Source: a virus
IMG/VR virus record: IMGVR_UViG_3300030451_000387
Coordinates: 1-20,026 of that record
Direction: 5' to 3' (one strand)
DNA length: 20,026 nucleotides
Positions 8,719 to 19,921 of the stretch are shown one piece after another. Within the stretch, counting starts at the first letter, position 1. Each line of letters opens with the position of its first letter. The position numbers and the translations under genes were made by a program. The notes under the pieces are model-generated. The model did no database searches, was not told the origin of the DNA, and saw only the letters and a list, made by a program, of their open reading frames with translations.

Positions 8719-10798
8719 AAATATTTCAGAGGCTCTTACGTACGTAACTGATGAGCCGGACGTTAAAACCTTACGGTATGCTTACGAGCAAACTATTACA
8801 GAACTAGAATCATATTTTGATTTATGTCGCACTAGCTACGATGACCGCAGGAATTGGTGGCCAGGCAAGAGTCGCGATCACCGAAAGCACGGTTCCGATG
8901 CCTTTCCTTGGGAGGGTGCAAGCGACAGTGAGTGCCACCTTATAGACGAGAGGATTACAAAACTTACCTCTCTCTTTATATCTGCTCTTAAACGTGCTAA
9001 CGTAAGGGCGTTTCCGGTAGAAAGCGGAGACATAGCAAGGAGCAAAATAGTGTCAGGCTTTCTTAAATGGATGATTCGTTCTGGATACATCCCTCGCTTT
9101 TATCGTGAGATGGAATTAGGTGCTAACTATTTATTAGAACGTGGTATTTTAGTTACATATGTTGGTTGGCACATGGAGGATCGATCCTTTGAGCAAGAAA
9201 TACAATTAGAACAAATAGCACAGATGTCTCCTGAGATAGCAGAACTTATACAGGAAGCAGATAATGATGAAACATTAATTTTATTACTTCAACAAACTTT
9301 TGGCGGCGTTACAAAAAAACGAGCGAAGAACGCACTCAAAGATCTAAGAAAAAATGGAATGGCGAAACTGCCCGTAGTACGCCGTCAAATTAATTGTCCA
9401 GAGGTTAAAACACTTGCACCTGATGGTGACTTTTTGTTTCCTCCCTATGTCACGGATCCACAACGAGCGCCTTACTGTTTTTGGAAAACTTATTACACTC
9501 CACAAGAACTAGAATTAAAGGTTACTACCGATGGGTGGAATCAGGACTTTGTAGATGTAATGATAGAAAGATACCGTGGCGTAAATATTGATAGCCTTGA
9601 GCGTTATGAAGAGGGTCGTCGTAGTATGAGTCTTACAGATACAGCCTATGAAGCTGATGAGCTAATAGAAATCATCTATGGTTATCAAAGACTTATTAAT
9701 GAAGAGGATGGATCAGAAGGTATTTACTGCACAGTATTTCACAAGAACTTTACTGGAGATGATGGTACAGGAACACCAGCTTTTGCTAAGTTTGAATTAC
9801 TTAATGGTTACGAGGACTATCCAGTAATAGTCACACGTCTATCAGAGGATACAAAACGTCTTTACGATGTATCTACTGTGCCAAGTATCTTGCGTGGTAT
9901 ACAGAATCAAGTCAAGGTAGAACGTGACTCACGGATTGACCGCAACAGTCTTGCTACGTTACCTCCTATCTTGCACCCAGTAGGTCAAGCACCCAATGAC
10001 TGGGGACCAGGCAGAATGATTCCTTATCGTCGTAAGGGTGACCTAGACTTTGCTCCTACACCTGCATTTAATCAAGGATCAATAGAGATGGAGCAAACAC
10101 TGCTAAATCAAGCTGATAGGATGATTGGACTTGATCCACAGGATCCTATGTCTCAATCAAGGCAGCAGTTCATGGTTGATAAGTTCTTAGGTCATGTAGC
10201 AGAAGTTATTCGTATGTCCTATAAGTGCTTCCAAAGATTTGGACCAGATCAAGTATTCTTTCAAGTTACTGGAATCCCTGATCCACAAGTTATCAGCAAA
10301 GGTGATCCTAATGAGAACTTTGATATAATGATTAACTTTGATGTGCTTGACACTGATCCAGAAACAGTAGAAAAGAAAATACAAGGCTTTGTTGCATTAC
10401 AGCAACTTAATGTAAATAACCGAATGAATGTAGATGGACTTCTTGATATTGCAGCAGCAAGTATTGATCCAGTTATGGCTGACTCCGTGCTACAGCCTGC
10501 GCCTGATGCACAAGAAGAAATGGTTCAAAGTGTTACTGATGACCTTACAAAAATCTTTGCAGGTATTGAAATGCCAGCAAGACCAGCTGGCGCACAGATT
10601 GCTATGGAAGTTATTCAGCAGTACGTTCAACAGCCTGACATTCAACAGCGTTTACAACAGGATGAAGCGTTCCGTGGACGTTTGGAGAAGTACCAAGGTC
10701 AGTACACATTCCAGATGCAACAAGCACAAAACGCACAGATTGGTAGAATTGGTACAGCCCCTGCACAAATGGGTGAAATCAGTACTCAGAATATGTAG
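8708..10798 (+). CDS. Portal protein (P22-like)
   Basis: The 696-residue protein has the length and layout of P22-type portal proteins, which form the dodecameric ring at one capsid vertex through which DNA enters and leaves. The conserved N-terminal element DAFPWEGASDSECHLIDERI is at about residues 64-83. A large mixed alpha/beta wing and clip follow, with the stem region around the RIDRNSLATLPPIL segment. The last 80 residues are Gln-rich and helical, like a portal barrel. The ATG at 8708 overlaps the upstream stop. Position between TerL and the scaffold and capsid genes supports the call. The 3' end may overlap an alternative GTG start of the lysozyme gene. Confidence 0.85.
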   Translation: MENKNISEALTYVTDEPDVKTLRYAYEQTITELESYFDLCRTSYDDRRNWWPGKSRDHRKHGSDAFPWEGASDSECHLIDERITKLTSLFISALKRANVRAFPVESGDIARSKIVSGFLKWMIRSGYIPRFYREMELGANYLLERGILVTYVGWHMEDRSFEQEIQLEQIAQMSPEIAELIQEADNDETLILLLQQTFGGVTKKRAKNALKDLRKNGMAKLPVVRRQINCPEVKTLAPDGDFLFPPYVTDPQRAPYCFWKTYYTPQELELKVTTDGWNQDFVDVMIERYRGVNIDSLERYEEGRRSMSLTDTAYEADELIEIIYGYQRLINEEDGSEGIYCTVFHKNFTGDDGTGTPAFAKFELLNGYEDYPVIVTRLSEDTKRLYDVSTVPSILRGIQNQVKVERDSRIDRNSLATLPPILHPVGQAPNDWGPGRMIPYRRKGDLDFAPTPAFNQGSIEMEQTLLNQADRMIGLDPQDPMSQSRQQFMVDKFLGHVAEVIRMSYKCFQRFGPDQVFFQVTGIPDPQVISKGDPNENFDIMINFDVLDTDPETVEKKIQGFVALQQLNVNNRMNVDGLLDIAAASIDPVMADSVLQPAPDAQEEMVQSVTDDLTKIFAGIEMPARPAGAQIAMEVIQQYVQQPDIQQRLQQDEAFRGRLEKYQGQYTFQMQQAQNAQIGRIGTAPAQMGEISTQNM

Positions 10799-10835
10799 CA
10801 TTGTACTAATACTTTGTTGTTCAACAAGTTATACA

Positions 10836-11363
10836 ATGGCAGATAATAAGACACCTAAAGAATTAGCTAATCGTCGAGTTCAGGAGCAACGCTCCAAGAA
10901 CTATTTTAATATGTTTAAGCTCAATGAAGGTAACAAACCAAAGGTTTACAAGGATAGCAAAGGCAATCGAACTATAGGTATTGGTTTTAATCTTGAGGAT
11001 GCTGGCAACAAAAGATTCTTAAAAGAACAAGGCATTGATATAAATGAACTGTTCAGAGGTAGAGAACTAACTGATAAAGAAACAAAAGTTCTTTATAATC
11101 ATAGTCTTAGGCAAGCATTTGCTGATGCACAGAAGTTCGATCCAGATCTAGCAAAGCGTCCAGAGGCAGCTAGGATGGCTATAGTTGACATGGCTTTTAA
11201 TCTAGGTCTAACAAAGTTAAATAAATTTGTAGAAATGAAAAAAGCTTTGATGAATAACGATTATCAAAAAGCTGCTGATGAAATGGTTGACAGCAACTGG
11301 TACAAGCAAGTAAAGTCCAGAGGACCAAGAATGGTAGATGTAATGCGTTCAGCCGCAAGATAA
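10836..11363 (+). CDS. T4-type lysozyme endolysin (GH24)
   Basis: From ATG 10836 the protein has 175 residues. The catalytic triad has exactly the spacing of T4 lysozyme: E31 in LNEG, D40 in YKDSKGN, T46 in RTIGIGF. The C-terminal WYKQVKSRGPRMVDVMR also matches the family. It cleaves peptidoglycan glycan strands and should release progeny. It is placed between portal and scaffold, away from the holin-like genes. The frame is open upstream, and a GTG at 10773 would add 21 residues with a basic start and a strongly hydrophobic core, resembling a signal peptide; neither start has a clear ribosome site. A near-perfect stem (10811-10829) precedes the ATG. Function is firm, start uncertain. Confidence 0.9.
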   Translation: MADNKTPKELANRRVQEQRSKNYFNMFKLNEGNKPKVYKDSKGNRTIGIGFNLEDAGNKRFLKEQGIDINELFRGRELTDKETKVLYNHSLRQAFADAQKFDPDLAKRPEAARMAIVDMAFNLGLTKLNKFVEMKKALMNNDYQKAADEMVDSNWYKQVKSRGPRMVDVMRSAAR

Positions 11364-15609: not shown

Positions 15610-15876
15610 ATGGCAAAATCAAGAAATAACGCATTGGAGTTCAGCTCCGCAGGTTCAGTCCTAGCAACAGATAGCGATGTTACTACAGGTAGCTTTGGAG
15701 CTATACAAATTCTACAGGACACTACTATGGGTGCTGTAGTATCTGATAATGTTGACCAGACTACTCACTCCGCAGCTGCTTTTAGTGGAAAAACTTTTGG
15801 AGCTGGAACTATACTATACGGTCAATTTTCATCTGTTACAGTAACTTCTGGCTTAGTAGCACTTCACAAGGTTTAA
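15610..15876 (+). CDS. Small beta-rich virion-like protein
   Basis: The 88-residue protein starts MAKSRNNALEFSSAGSVLAT and consists of short Ser/Thr/Gly-rich strands (GSFGAIQILQDTTMGAVV, GTILYGQFSSVTVTSGLVAL). This pattern, a single small beta unit with a repeated Gly turn, is common in small head or tail tip proteins of phages, which often form trimers. No function is known to me. The start follows an AT-rich leader without Shine-Dalgarno, and the stop lies one base before the next gene. Confidence 0.55.
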   Translation: MAKSRNNALEFSSAGSVLATDSDVTTGSFGAIQILQDTTMGAVVSDNVDQTTHSAAAFSGKTFGAGTILYGQFSSVTVTSGLVALHKV

Positions 15877-15877
15877 T

Positions 15878-16732
15878 ATGAATATTAGCCTCGATTCAGC
15901 CCTAGGTCGGCAGAGAAGGCTGAACCAAGTAGGAGAGACTATTAACTCAATAGCTACTCCTGCTGCTGCATATAGTCTTAGGAGTCTTACTGGTGGTGAT
16001 CCTTTAGCAGTGCGTGTTCGTAGAGATACAGGTGGGGGTGCTGGAGATGACGATGAGCAAGATTTTACTGTATCTGAAATAAACTCTGGAGCATTGGTTG
16101 CTTTTGTTGGTTCTGGAAACAATGGCTTTGTTGAAACTTGGTATGACCAATCAGGCAACGATAATCACGTTACTAATACAAATACAGGTAATCAACCTAA
16201 GATTGTAAGCTCTGGTTCTTTATTAACACAAGGCGGTAAAGCCTGTATTAATTTTGATGGTACAGATAACTTTCTTAACAAAGAAACTTACACGCAAGGA
16301 GCTTTATCTCAACCCAATACTGCTTTTGCTGTGGCTAAATTAGACGTTTATACTGATTCAAATAAGAAAATATTTGATGGTGATGTAGCGACGGCTAGAA
16401 ATATGCTTAATCTTAATCCAGCTGGCAATGGGCAGTTTAGTATTTTTGCAGGGACTGTTCGAACTACTGGAGAAGATGCTGATGCGGATAGGCATTTACT
16501 TACTGCTTTATATAATGGTGCGTCATCTATTTTAAGAATAGATACAACCCAGAAAATTTCAAATAATGCCGGAACCAATACAATGAACGGAATTGTAATT
16601 GGAGCAAACCACGATACTGCTCAAAACTTTTGGGATGGAGATATACAAGAAATTATTATATGTGACTCCAATCAAACAAGTAACTTTACTGCCTTAGAAG
16701 GTAACATTAACTCTTATTACTCAATATTCTAA
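15878..16732 (+). CDS. GH54/arabinofuranosidase-like lectin-fold tail or surface protein
   Basis: The 284-residue protein has the start of the alpha-L-arabinofuranosidase B catalytic-type beta-sandwich (GH54-like): AYSLRSL at 31-37, VRVRR at 45-49, an acidic linker, then ETWYDQSGNDNH at 86-97, followed by strands around CINFDGTDNFL. The second half looks like a concanavalin-type jelly roll, ending in an LEGNINSYYSIF helix typical of such domains. Phages use this fold mainly for binding or cutting surface glycans, so a receptor-binding fibre or glycan hydrolase is likely. Catalytic residues cannot be confirmed by reading. It overlaps the next gene by one base (TAATG). Confidence 0.65.
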   Translation: MNISLDSALGRQRRLNQVGETINSIATPAAAYSLRSLTGGDPLAVRVRRDTGGGAGDDDEQDFTVSEINSGALVAFVGSGNNGFVETWYDQSGNDNHVTNTNTGNQPKIVSSGSLLTQGGKACINFDGTDNFLNKETYTQGALSQPNTAFAVAKLDVYTDSNKKIFDGDVATARNMLNLNPAGNGQFSIFAGTVRTTGEDADADRHLLTALYNGASSILRIDTTQKISNNAGTNTMNGIVIGANHDTAQNFWDGDIQEIIICDSNQTSNFTALEGNINSYYSIF

Positions 16733-16968
16733 TGATTTATTTAATATACGACAACGAAGAAGATGCTAATGCTCGTGCCGATAAAGAAGGTAAGAGAATA
16801 GGTTTATCTTATTGGATACATGGAGTAGGGTCACGAAGAGTTCTTTCACCACAACCTACAGCAGAAGGTAAGTGGGCATTGAATGTTACTGTTTATGATT
16901 TAACCGAAGAGGAAGAATCTTCTACTGTTGAGTCATTTAATTCTGTAATACAAAGCGAGGAATTTTAA
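16732..16968 (+). CDS. Small protein following the adhesin gene
   Basis: The 78-residue acidic protein (MIYLIYDNEEDANARADKEG at its start) is unknown to me by function. It has an N-terminal strand, a helix, a central YWIHGVGSRRVLSPQPTAEGKW segment that looks conserved, and an acidic tail. Short genes coupled to fibre genes often encode assembly chaperones, and the one-base overlap with the adhesin gene fits that, but this is inference. It overlaps the next gene by one base as well. Confidence 0.6.
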   Translation: MIYLIYDNEEDANARADKEGKRIGLSYWIHGVGSRRVLSPQPTAEGKWALNVTVYDLTEEEESSTVESFNSVIQSEEF

Positions 16969-17123
16969 TGGAAACTATGCTCAGAGGAACAGTAGGATCA
17001 ACAGGGTTCTTTGCTTGTATGGGATTACAAAGCGTAAATACCGTAGTTAGCCTAGTTGTTGGGGTAATGACTTTTGTATTTCTAGGACTATCTATTTATA
17101 AATTACTAAAGGATCTGAAATGA
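16968..17123 (+). CDS. Small single-span membrane protein, holin-like
   Basis: A 51-residue frame starts at ATG 16968, sharing a base with the upstream stop, and ends in an ATGA overlap with the next gene at 17120. It has a short N-terminus, one strongly hydrophobic helix at about residues 24-45 (VNTVVSLVVGVMTFVFLGLS) and a basic end YKLLKDLK. Size, topology and position next to another holin-like gene suggest a small holin or pinholin that opens the inner membrane for lysis. The family cannot be named from sequence. Confidence 0.65.
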   Translation: METMLRGTVGSTGFFACMGLQSVNTVVSLVVGVMTFVFLGLSIYKLLKDLK

Positions 17124-17524
17124 CTACTGAACTTATAGCAATGCTAGGTGGTGGTGCATCTGGGTTCTTGTTTAAGTTGATCGGTACAATGGTTACTGCT
17201 CAACAAAACAATGTAAATAACCTCATAAAAAAACAAGAGGCATCGAGTGCAAGTGCTGATGCAGCTGCAAAACGCACAGGAGATGGTGGTGCTTGGGTAA
17301 GAAGAGTAATAGTAGTAACAGTTTTATTTGGTGTAATTATAGCCCCCTTTATACTAGCTCACAGTGACGAAGGAGTAACAGTAGCTAGTGAATACAGTAA
17401 ATTTTTTGGGTTTAAAAAGGGTACAACATTCCAAACTCTGCACGGCTATGTTATACTACCAGAGATACGCCAAACAGTTCTAGCCATAGTAGGTTTTTAC
17501 TTTGGTTCATCCTCAGTCAAATAA
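17120..17524 (+). CDS. Putative 3-TM holin (gene-transfer-agent type)
   Basis: The 134-residue protein starts with a Gly-rich weakly hydrophobic helix (residues 4-25), has a Gln/Asn/Ala-rich linker, a clear membrane helix at about 63-80 (VIVVTVLFGVIIAPFI) and a third hydrophobic stretch at 117-130 ending GFYFGSS. The arrangement and the final FYFGS motif resemble the 3-TM holins described for gene transfer agents and related phages. It would control timing of lysis. It overlaps the 51-residue membrane gene by four bases and ends one base before the next ATG. Confidence 0.6.
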   Translation: MTTELIAMLGGGASGFLFKLIGTMVTAQQNNVNNLIKKQEASSASADAAAKRTGDGGAWVRRVIVVTVLFGVIIAPFILAHSDEGVTVASEYSKFFGFKKGTTFQTLHGYVILPEIRQTVLAIVGFYFGSSSVK

Positions 17525-17525
17525 T

Positions 17526-17744
17526 ATGAAAAAATGTAATGTATGCGACAAGCCTAAGAGCATTTGCTCTTGGTGTTCACCAATCCAATGGATTACAAAA
17601 ACGCTCAACAAAAACTCTCTGAACTCCGTGATAGCCTCGATAAAGTTCTTGGTAGTAAAACCGAAGGACCTAGCCGGGAAGACGCTGAGGAGGCTCTCAA
17701 GACGGCTAAAGACGGTGCTAGGCGGGCTAAGAAAACGCTCCTAG
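17526..17744 (+). CDS. Small CxxC...CxxC protein overlapping the acidic coiled-coil gene
   Basis: ATG 17526 begins one base after the holin-like stop and opens MKKCNVCDKPKSICSWCSPI, with two CxxC pairs that could bind zinc. The frame continues 72 codons to 17744 but from 17588 runs in a different frame from the larger acidic gene, and its C-terminal half is just basic, as expected from reading the other gene out of frame. Either two genes truly overlap here, or only the first 20-odd codons are functional (for example as a coupled or frameshifted leader of the acidic protein). Confidence 0.4.
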   Translation: MKKCNVCDKPKSICSWCSPIQWITKTLNKNSLNSVIASIKFLVVKPKDLAGKTLRRLSRRLKTVLGGLRKRS

Positions 17745-18367
17745 GCAGAATCAAGGAGTTACCTGTAGTAGACAAGATAACACAGCTTGGAGCCGCAGGA
17801 ACAGTAGCTGTAAGCACGGCAGCAGTTACTCAGACTAATATAGCCGTGGATGAGACAGAAGTATTTGTAGCCAGTGTAGCTAACGACGTAGTGCATGAAA
17901 GACTAAGATTCCCACCAGTGATAAATAACTTTGTAGATTTTAGTGCATTGAACTCTTGGGGACAAGCAGTTATGCAAGAAAAGGTAGCCAAGGTACAAGC
18001 AGAGGTAGCCAAGGTAGAGGCTAAGGTAGCACCGGTTGAGTCACAGGCCACCGAAGAAACCGAGAGCCAAGAACCACAAGCCCAAAAAGAAAGTGCTAAC
18101 AACACCGAGGAAAATAGAGGAAGTGCAGAAGAAGCTAAACAAGATGCAGAAGAGGTTGATAGTGAAGAAGTAAAGAGTAACGAGACACAGGAGTCCCAGC
18201 AAGCAGAAGAAGCAGAACCTGTGCCAGAGGAAGAAAGCGGTGAAAGTGTTGATAAAATAGATGAGGTTAAGCCGCATTCAGAAGTTCAATCCGATGAACC
18301 TGAACAGCCAATAATTACACCAGATAACTTACCAACAGTGTCACCAGAACAACCAAGACAGGTATGA
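17588..18367 (+). CDS. Acidic coiled-coil protein with hydrophobic segment
   Basis: From ATG 17588 the protein has 259 residues and is not recognised. A charged helical N-terminus (1-60) is followed by a moderately hydrophobic stretch at about 65-87 (LGAAGTVAVSTAAVTQTNIAV) that could cross or insert into a membrane. A region rich in aromatic residues and Pro follows, then coiled-coil repeats of Glu/Val/Ala/Lys at 131-150, and a long disordered Glu/Ser/Gln tail with Pro at the end. The coiled-coil repeat is also visible as a near-duplicate of about 20 bases in the DNA around 18000. It lies between membrane genes, so it may be an envelope-spanning or virion-internal protein. The stop overlaps the next ATG as ATGA. 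Confidence 0.55.
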   Translation: MDYKNAQQKLSELRDSLDKVLGSKTEGPSREDAEEALKTAKDGARRAKKTLLGRIKELPVVDKITQLGAAGTVAVSTAAVTQTNIAVDETEVFVASVANDVVHERLRFPPVINNFVDFSALNSWGQAVMQEKVAKVQAEVAKVEAKVAPVESQATEETESQEPQAQKESANNTEENRGSAEEAKQDAEEVDSEEVKSNETQESQQAEEAEPVPEEESGESVDKIDEVKPHSEVQSDEPEQPIITPDNLPTVSPEQPRQV

Positions 18368-18528
18368 TACAATACATAATTGATAATTACAAAGAGAATC
18401 TACTAGGTATGCTATTTGCGTACATAGGAATATTTTCTATTATAGTTATGTTCCTACCTAAGAATAATATAATATCTAGAGCTTTCAAAGAGTTTGCATC
18501 AATATGTACGTCTATCTTCAAAAAATAA
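18364..18528 (+). CDS. 54-residue single-span membrane protein
   Basis: The frame starts at ATG 18364 in an ATGA overlap with the acidic coiled-coil gene and ends at 18528, overlapping the secreted-protein gene by 25 bases. It has a short polar N-terminus, a membrane helix at about residues 15-32 (GMLFAYIGIFSIIVMFLP) and a basic C-terminus. The overlaps on both sides and the clean hydrophobic helix make it a likely real gene. Its role is unknown; a holin, antiholin or spanin part is possible given the neighbours. Confidence 0.6.
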   Translation: MIQYIIDNYKENLLGMLFAYIGIFSIIVMFLPKNNIISRAFKEFASICTSIFKK

Positions 18529-19121
18529 AATTTTTATTAGCCCCCTTACTACTTGCTTCTATAGCTTGGGGTGCTGTACAACTAAACAGCGTGGTATATG
18601 ACCTAGAGGTAGGCATAGACGAAACCTATAGTGTATCTGATTTTAATCCACAGGGCGGTAAAACTTACTACAATCCAATGATATTTACTACTTCTGTAGG
18701 CGGACAGTACACATTTGAAAACTATTCTAGCGACCTAACAGGAGGAACCCAGGATACTGCATTGTTAATTTACGATGACCTCAAGGCTGACTTTGTAATT
18801 GATCAGCCTGCAATATTTAACGATGGTCCTAACATAGGATTTGGTGGAGGACAGCTTGATACTTTTCAAGGGTTTGAAAGGTATAATGAACCATTCAACG
18901 GAACTATAACTTTAGCCGAAGACACTACTTATGCTGCTGTGTTCTCATCGTTTTCACCGGATGCTTTAGGAACTATGCAAGTTCGACTAACAGCACCAGG
19001 ACAAATTTATAGTGTTGATTTAGTGCCTATACCAGAACTAAAAGATACTGGATTATGGATTGCACTAATCATAGGATTCTTTGTAGCATTCAGCTACATG
19101 AAAATAAAAAGCGGTATATAA
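18504..19121 (+). CDS. Secreted beta-sandwich protein with PEP-CTERM-like C-terminus
   Basis: The 205-residue protein begins with a signal peptide (basic LQKIKF, hydrophobic LLAPLLLASIAWGA, likely cut near residue 24). The body (25-170) is beta-rich, with GGQYTFENYSSDLTGGTQDT and a TITLAEDTTYAAVF strand pair, resembling small carbohydrate- or Ca-binding sandwich domains found in host exported proteins. The end is VPIPEL at 174-179, an uninterrupted hydrophobic helix (LWIALIIGFFVAFSYM) and a short basic tail, the layout of PEP-CTERM or other tail-anchored exported proteins. Whether an exosortase would recognise VPIPE is unknown. No later in-frame start would preserve the signal peptide. It may be displayed on the host surface, for example in superinfection exclusion; that is speculation. 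Confidence 0.6.
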   Translation: MYVYLQKIKFLLAPLLLASIAWGAVQLNSVVYDLEVGIDETYSVSDFNPQGGKTYYNPMIFTTSVGGQYTFENYSSDLTGGTQDTALLIYDDLKADFVIDQPAIFNDGPNIGFGGGQLDTFQGFERYNEPFNGTITLAEDTTYAAVFSSFSPDALGTMQVRLTAPGQIYSVDLVPIPELKDTGLWIALIIGFFVAFSYMKIKSGI

Positions 19122-19150: not shown

Positions 19151-19264
19151 ATGCCAATGGGAAAAGGAACATACGGAAGCAAAGTAGGCCGTCCATCTAA
19201 AGCTGCAAAAGCTAAAGGAATGAAGGGAATGGCTAAAAAGAAAATGGTAAAACGAAAGAAGTAA
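19151..19264 (+). CDS. Polybasic mini-protein 1 (37 residues)
   Basis: ATG 19151 follows a good AAAAGGA and a leader containing ACCAATAACA. The 37 residues are Lys/Gly/Met-rich (MPMGKGTYGSKVGRPSKAAK, then KGMKGMAKKKM), with no acidic residue. Short proteins starting with this Gly-Lys-Thr-Tyr-Gly pattern recur in phage genomes, from memory, with no known function. The stop shares a base with the next ATG (TAATG). A role in binding DNA inside the capsid would fit the charge. Confidence 0.6.
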   Translation: MPMGKGTYGSKVGRPSKAAKAKGMKGMAKKKMVKRKK

Positions 19265-19404
19265 TGCCATTTAGCAAATACAGTCCAAAACAGAAGAAGA
19301 TAGCTAGAATAGCTGCACCTCGTAACAAAATTACTGGGGCTGACTTCAAAGTACTAAGGAGTAGAAATGCACAGAAAAATACTAACCGTCGCAAGAAAGC
19401 TTGA
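19264..19404 (+). CDS. Polybasic mini-protein 2 (46 residues)
   Basis: The frame starts in TAATG overlap with the previous gene and encodes 46 residues beginning MPFSKYSPKQKKIARIAAPR and containing KITGADFKVLRSRN. It is strongly basic with a single acidic residue. Similar short proteins with a KYSPKQKK start occur in other phages, by recollection, without assigned function. It overlaps the next gene by 38 bases in another frame. Confidence 0.6.
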   Translation: MPFSKYSPKQKKIARIAAPRNKITGADFKVLRSRNAQKNTNRRKKA

Positions 19405-19492
19405 GAAAGCTTCTAAGGCTCACGCAGGACAAGCAAAACTATTAAAATCATTAGCAAGTCATGGCAAAAAAAAGAGCAAAAAGCGGGGGTAA
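19367..19492 (+). CDS. Polybasic mini-protein 3 (41 residues)
   Basis: ATG 19367 has the good ribosome site AAGGAG and encodes 41 residues of basic helix (MHRKILTVARKLEKASKAHA, then GQAKLLKSLASHGKK and a Lys/Arg tail). It overlaps the preceding gene by 38 bases and the following gene by 32. The AHAGQAKLL block is, from memory, conserved in small phage proteins. Function unknown. Confidence 0.55.
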   Translation: MHRKILTVARKLEKASKAHAGQAKLLKSLASHGKKKSKKRG

Positions 19493-19634
19493 AATATGCC
19501 CCGAAGGTAAAGCCTGGGCTAGGCGTACATTTGACACCTATCCAAGTGCTTATGCTAACTTGGCCGCATCTAAGTACTGCAAGGATCCAAACTACGCAAA
19601 AAAAGCAAAGGGAGGAAAACGAAAGGGTAGATAA
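19461..19634 (+). CDS. Small basic protein with YPSAYAN motif
   Basis: The 57-residue protein reads MAKKRAKSGGKICPEGKAWA followed by TFDTYPSAYANLAASKYCKD and a Lys/Gly tail. The pattern of Cys, EGK, YPSAYAN and Cys is one I associate with a recurrent family of small phage proteins (near DUF5872), function unknown. The two Cys (13 and 40) could form a bridge or bind metal. It overlaps the upstream gene by 32 bases and shares one base with the next start (TAATG). Confidence 0.65.
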   Translation: MAKKRAKSGGKICPEGKAWARRTFDTYPSAYANLAASKYCKDPNYAKKAKGGKRKGR

Positions 19635-19921
19635 TGGCATCCAAAAGGATTCCTAGAAAAAGACCAGATGGAACTGTAAGACCTAAGTCAAAGCACTCTG
19701 ATTTGTACACGGATGAGAATCCTAAAGGTACAATAAAGGGACTAGGATTCAAGGATGTTAAGACAGCTAAGTCTAGTATAAATAAAATTAAACGATCAGG
19801 AAGAACTCACGCACATAAGATACAAGCAGCTATAGCTATGGAACAAAGAGCAAAAGTAATGAAAAAAACAGGTCCTGCTAGAGTATATAGAACTTATATT
19901 AACAGTATAAAAAAATCATAA
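19634..19921 (+). CDS. Conserved phage basic protein (95 residues)
   Basis: The protein begins MASKRIPRKRPDGTVRPKSK and contains HSDLYTDENPKGTIKGLGFK, VKTAKSSINKIKRSGR and AHKIQAAIAMEQRAKVM. These blocks are, from memory, conserved in many phage hypothetical proteins, probably a helical DNA-associated or virion-internal protein. It is coupled on both sides by TAATG overlaps. No enzymatic motif is visible. Confidence 0.65.
   Translation: MASKRIPRKRPDGTVRPKSKHSDLYTDENPKGTIKGLGFKDVKTAKSSINKIKRSGRTHAHKIQAAIAMEQRAKVMKKTGPARVYRTYINSIKKS

Follow-up and report, generated by a model that had tools for sequence, protein, structure and literature searches.

The last gene of a holin-like cassette in the window, the 20,026-nt stretch of DNA from an IMG/VR virus record analysed here, encodes what is probably (we put it at roughly 0.6) a divergent, drifted member of a phage protein family that carries an exosortase-type (PEP-CTERM-like) C-terminal signal and acts with the exosortase of the host. 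The tail is a feature common to two unrelated protein bodies, and tails have been recombined between bodies. The sorting signal itself is of a known kind; its bearers, phages, and its setting, a holin-like cassette, are new. Exosortase substrates have so far been described as bacterial proteins, and no earlier description of phage PEP-CTERM proteins was found in the part of the literature covered, as judged by titles and abstracts. If the reading is right, a phage family that carries and swaps the signal in such a cassette would mean that viruses use the exosortase sorting route.

The open reading frame named in the preliminary description is intact at its position (Table 1) and begins with a signal-like helix, recognised by hydropathy and inspection. 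In residues 1-24 a hydrophobic core that ends in AWGA follows a basic n-region, and the predicted signal peptide, judged like its cleavage site by eye and hydropathy, is likely to be cut at AWG/A or WGA/V; the mean peak N-terminal hydropathy is 2.46 in proteins with the target body type vs 0.35 in the short type described below. This basic and hydrophobic start is followed by a beta-rich body and then by VPIPELKDTGLWIALIIGFFVAFSYMKIKSGI, and the protein contains no Cys. Of the beta-sandwich body proposed earlier, the beta-rich character was borne out by AlphaFold in both models built (mean pLDDT 48.8 from 10 sequences, 62.9 from 28), whereas the likeness to known sandwich domains was weak: a fold search with the model gave no PDB match at E<=0.001, weak beta-sandwich matches only, and an unnamed viral protein at 1.6e-6. 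Family scans of the protein against Pfam, NCBIfam and PHROGs gave no match, and a PDB sequence search returned nothing credible. Among the collections searched, relatives were seen in viral contigs only, with no cellular homologue of the body in 223 Opitutales and no credible one in 388 Verrucomicrobiota. Isolate phages searched with the target, one short-body protein and tm54 gave no match, nor did plasmids searched with the short-body protein.

Table 1. Genes of the cassette and predicted features of the target protein (window positions)
Feature	Position	Strand	Remarks
tm51, 51-aa membrane protein, first cassette gene	16968..17123	+	homologue in P8625
Holin-like membrane protein, phrog_38283	17120..17524	+	nearest relatives in C75C1 (52%) and Verrucomicrobia phage P8625 (51%)
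cc267, one membrane segment then long acidic tail	17564..18367	+	travels with tm54 and target
tm54, 54-aa single-helix protein	18364..18528	+	25-nt overlap with target start; upstream partner of tail proteins
Target gene, 205 aa	18504..19121	+	ORF intact; predicted signal peptide, beta-rich body, IPE tail
Predicted Sec signal peptide, residues 1-24	18504..18575	+	by eye and hydropathy; no lipobox Cys
Beta-rich body, residues ~30-172	18591..19019	+	AlphaFold models; loop 95-130 poorly modelled
VPIPEL motif, residues 174-179	19023..19040	+	Ile-Pro-Glu invariant in 28 relatives
C-terminal membrane helix and K-I-K end, residues 182-203	19047..19112	+	predicted

The protein had been described as ending in VPIPEL, a hydrophobic helix and a basic tail. 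Motif and helix are present, the helix following directly on the motif at the extreme C-terminus (182-203 of 205), and the basic end is thin: the terminus reads KIKSGI, with a cluster of just two Lys, and relatives have KIRS or IKRK. Because all 28 distinct relatives of the target body keep Ile-Pro-Glu (176-178) and the hydrophobic segment after it, the tail is more than a chance resemblance. The gene is clearly under purifying selection (median dN/dS ~0.10), and the tail is held as tightly as the body (pN/pS 0.19 and 0.18, respectively). The motif of the window copy is Pro-Glu-Leu, not Pro-Glu-Pro; PEP occurs in 8 of the 28 distinct members with this body, and L, M, S or V takes the place of the second Pro in the other 20. 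No NCBIfam or Pfam PEP-CTERM model matched the window protein at E<=10 (a TIGR02595 scan of the whole viral record, in which the controls were silent, is not counted). The window tail scored like shuffled sequence when compared with an HMM built from 38 Opitutales tails, and most IPEP orthologues of the target scored 6.0-9.6 bits, 99.9% of block-shuffled controls lying below 9.4 bits. Some homologues do carry the motif at their end, close relatives reading AIPEPSDTGLW. By itself the window tail would not carry the PEP-CTERM label; the family context changes the reading.

The null profile scores, together with the replacement of the second Pro in most members, would also suit an ordinary type I inner-membrane protein, in which the IPEL anchor of the window copy has lost exosortase recognition while its relatives keep it. 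Such a loss sits poorly with an Ile-Pro-Glu that is invariant in 28 of 28, with a tail constrained as much as the body and with close IPEP relatives whose tail is nearly identical, and we consider it unlikely.

Stronger signals come from more distant phages, found by searching with tm54, in which the gene after tm54 encodes a different, unrelated body. These short-body proteins (79-126 aa, about 90) lack a signal peptide, have an N-terminal part with a charge of about -12 and end in canonical tags such as AIPEPSTYVLFAGFAVLLYTLIKRRK, AIPEPSTTAIFLGIIALCMVSLNKLIRRT and SVPEPSAIGFIMGLALLTLTILKRK, with [VI]PEP in 57 of 60 distinct proteins. TIGR02595 matched 14 of 22 members and PF07589 15 of 22; one of them, L069, reached 17.5 bits with the former, above its cut-off of 16, and 18.6 bits with the latter vs a cut-off of 20.7. 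Short-body tails scored up to 32.5 bits against the HMM of Opitutales tails, a slightly circular result in that 10 of the 38 tails were first found with the short-body profile; the TIGR02595 result is free of this circularity. Tails matched by TIGR02595 and PF07589 thus occupy the same slot in other phages, whereas the window copy shows the layout proposed earlier in a weakened form and has no profile match; phage use of an exosortase signal is supported at the level of the phage family, of which the window copy would be a drifted member. A tm54-like gene is the immediate upstream neighbour in 56 of 57 distinct testable cases (52 recognised by pattern and 4 more by eye), and in almost all of them the two genes overlap by the 4 nt ATGA, indicating that the tail protein is made as one of a coupled pair with tm54. 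From the strongly negative N-terminal part and the basic end, the positive-inside rule would make the short type N-out/C-in.

Tails have been exchanged between bodies. L099 and L444 have bodies of the target type (39-40% and 39% identity, respectively) joined to a tail of the short-body type, and at the DNA level the L099 tail shares 90% identity with the tail of an unrelated body in L048. L151 and L055 have bodies that are 94% identical in DNA and tails that are 56% identical. Short-body tails of the form ADAGF...FVAFCYFKNK grade into the target kind, DTGLW...FVAFSYMKI. On the simplest reading of these sequences, the target tail would descend from an IPEP form that is extant in 8 of the 28 members.

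The phages resembling the window probably infect marine Opitutales (Verrucomicrobiota), a host that we infer for the window phage itself. The portal (~70%) and MCP (71%) of the window are matched in a 10.1-kb contig of the Opitutales MAG G221, whose genome gives 2 matches to exosortase and 16 to PEP-CTERM models; a second contig of this MAG resembles P8625, a phage of Puniceicoccales (PMC4642752). The phage contigs of the MAG are short, and their placement in it could be a binning error. The target was found neither in MAG G221 nor in P8625, a phage of known host. Among isolates, the closest homologues of the holin-like protein belong to P8625 and phage C75C1 (host not given). A host order without exosortases, which would have told against the earlier proposal, is not what we found: exosortase matches occur in 161 of 223 Opitutales genomes and PEP-CTERM matches over the cut-off in 158 of 223. 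The short-body profile also matches various proteins at their C-terminal ends, in 66 of the 223 Opitutales genomes and in 0 of 25 genomes from other groups. In L324, a P8625-like locus of MAG G221 (contig C78), the holin-like gene is followed by a metallophosphoesterase-like gene, not by the tail pair.

The cassette, which occurs in marine IMG/VR phages, runs in the order tm51, the holin-like gene, cc267, tm54 and target. We call the phrog_38283 protein holin-like by inference, as Pfam holin models did not match it. A homologue of its gene in a Roseobacter phage directly adjoins a putative lytic transglycosylase, which argues for a lysis setting of the cassette; the membrane/lysis setting assigned earlier to the target is supported. 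The related phage L020 is 69-96% identical to the window across the cassette genes (tm54 96%, holin-like 92%, target 79%); among the structural genes, portal and MCP are 42% and 38% identical, and the cassette is thus well conserved even between phages with divergent structural genes. The order is changed in L097 (3873-5405), where cc267, tm54 and the tail gene precede the holin-like gene, and these three genes therefore move as a block.

For timing, recognition of the IPEL form and purpose, we infer the following course. The target would probably be made late, from within the holin-like cassette and coupled to tm54, and its body would be exported by way of the signal peptide. The predicted signal peptide would put the N-terminus out and the C-terminal helix, held in the inner membrane, would put the C-terminus in, and Ile-Pro-Glu would therefore face the periplasm, in the arrangement that has been described for PEP-CTERM proteins (PMC1569441). 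A host exosortase meeting the tail could then release the body or anchor it towards the outer membrane or surface, in a step at lysis that disrupts the envelope, as a spanin does, or remodels it. This explanation is least certain in that an exosortase would have to recognise the IPEL form; the window tail without a profile match and the short-body relatives without a signal peptide also count against an exosortase substrate. The lysis-time purpose is tentative, though it is the most likely one given the holin-like cassette, the lack of recognisable lipoprotein spanins and a layout like that of T1 gp11, and we favour a lysis-time envelope role over surface exclusion.

One form of the exosortase-substrate explanation would make the target a spanin-like lysis protein that bridges inner and outer membrane through exosortase sorting instead of lipidation. 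Its place in the holin-like cassette would fit, as would a C-terminal helix and beta-rich periplasmic body like those of the unimolecular spanin T1 gp11 (PMC6139136), and N-out/C-in proteins have been proposed as possible spanin parts (PMC6139136). A pattern scan of near-complete relatives found no lipobox protein, and the sole match in the window is antisense to the lysozyme ORF, so a lipoprotein spanin was rejected. The target itself has no lipobox Cys, in which it differs from the lipidated T1 gp11 (the two are compared by layout, not by sequence), the short-body form lacks a signal peptide, tm54 and cc267 show no known spanin likeness, and the phage lysozyme domain lies far from the cassette, between portal and scaffold-like genes (10434-11363, at 10.4-11.4 kb of the window). 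A spanin-like function in this specific sense is rather unlikely, and it is doubtful that phages of PEP-CTERM bacteria possess a whole class of exosortase-sorted, non-lipidated spanins coupled with the inner-membrane protein tm54.

The preliminary description had suggested altering of the cell surface or superinfection exclusion, that is, a body displayed on the cell surface that blocks or changes receptors. The predicted beta-sandwich does weakly resemble carbohydrate-binding and adhesin folds, and PEP-CTERM and exosortase are tied to exopolysaccharide and export (PMC1569441). A position on the lysis side would nevertheless be poor timing for exclusion, and two unrelated bodies in one slot, with no receptor-binding signature, make this role improbable. 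That the tail is a mere decoy occupying the host exosortase, as unrelated bodies with a common tail type and swapped tails might suggest, is very improbable, given a conserved exported domain for which a decoy has no need and which is under purifying selection equal to that on the tail.

Set against the PEP-CTERM/exosortase system (EpsH; TIGR02595, PF07589, PF09721), the family shows a likeness in its Pro-Glu motif and hydrophobic helix, with a C-terminal end that is weakly basic in the target, in the predicted signal peptide of the target, in diverse bodies without known domains and in an exosortase-rich likely host order. The family differs from that system in being phage-encoded, in a holin-like cassette and coupled to tm54, with PEL in place of PEP in the window and short-body relatives that lack a signal peptide. 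A choice-of-anchor protein was also considered: the orthologue in L005 matched NF041539 (choice_anch_R) weakly (E 0.0016; 18.4 bits vs a cut-off of 30) and the window protein did not match, and membership was rejected because the score is below the cut-off and weak matches also occur in unrelated control genomes. If true, the exosortase-substrate reading would give a handle on how Verrucomicrobia phages without recognisable lipoprotein spanins open the outer envelope, and the short-body proteins (~90 aa) would be small substrates for testing exosortase chemistry.

Further features were observed around the cassette. Several short and strongly basic proteins are encoded in succession 3' of the target (19152-19921); they are also present in relatives, among them phages that lack the tail gene. 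On the other side, a virion-like protein (phrog_10356; 15878-16732) matches relatives better at its start and end than in its middle, and a small gene at 15610-15876 has matching tandem copies in L019 (3576-4154). In L098, L087 and L100, which lack the tail pair, a 51-aa membrane protein (MNE.LQ...FDFHNKRK) is encoded just after the holin-like gene.
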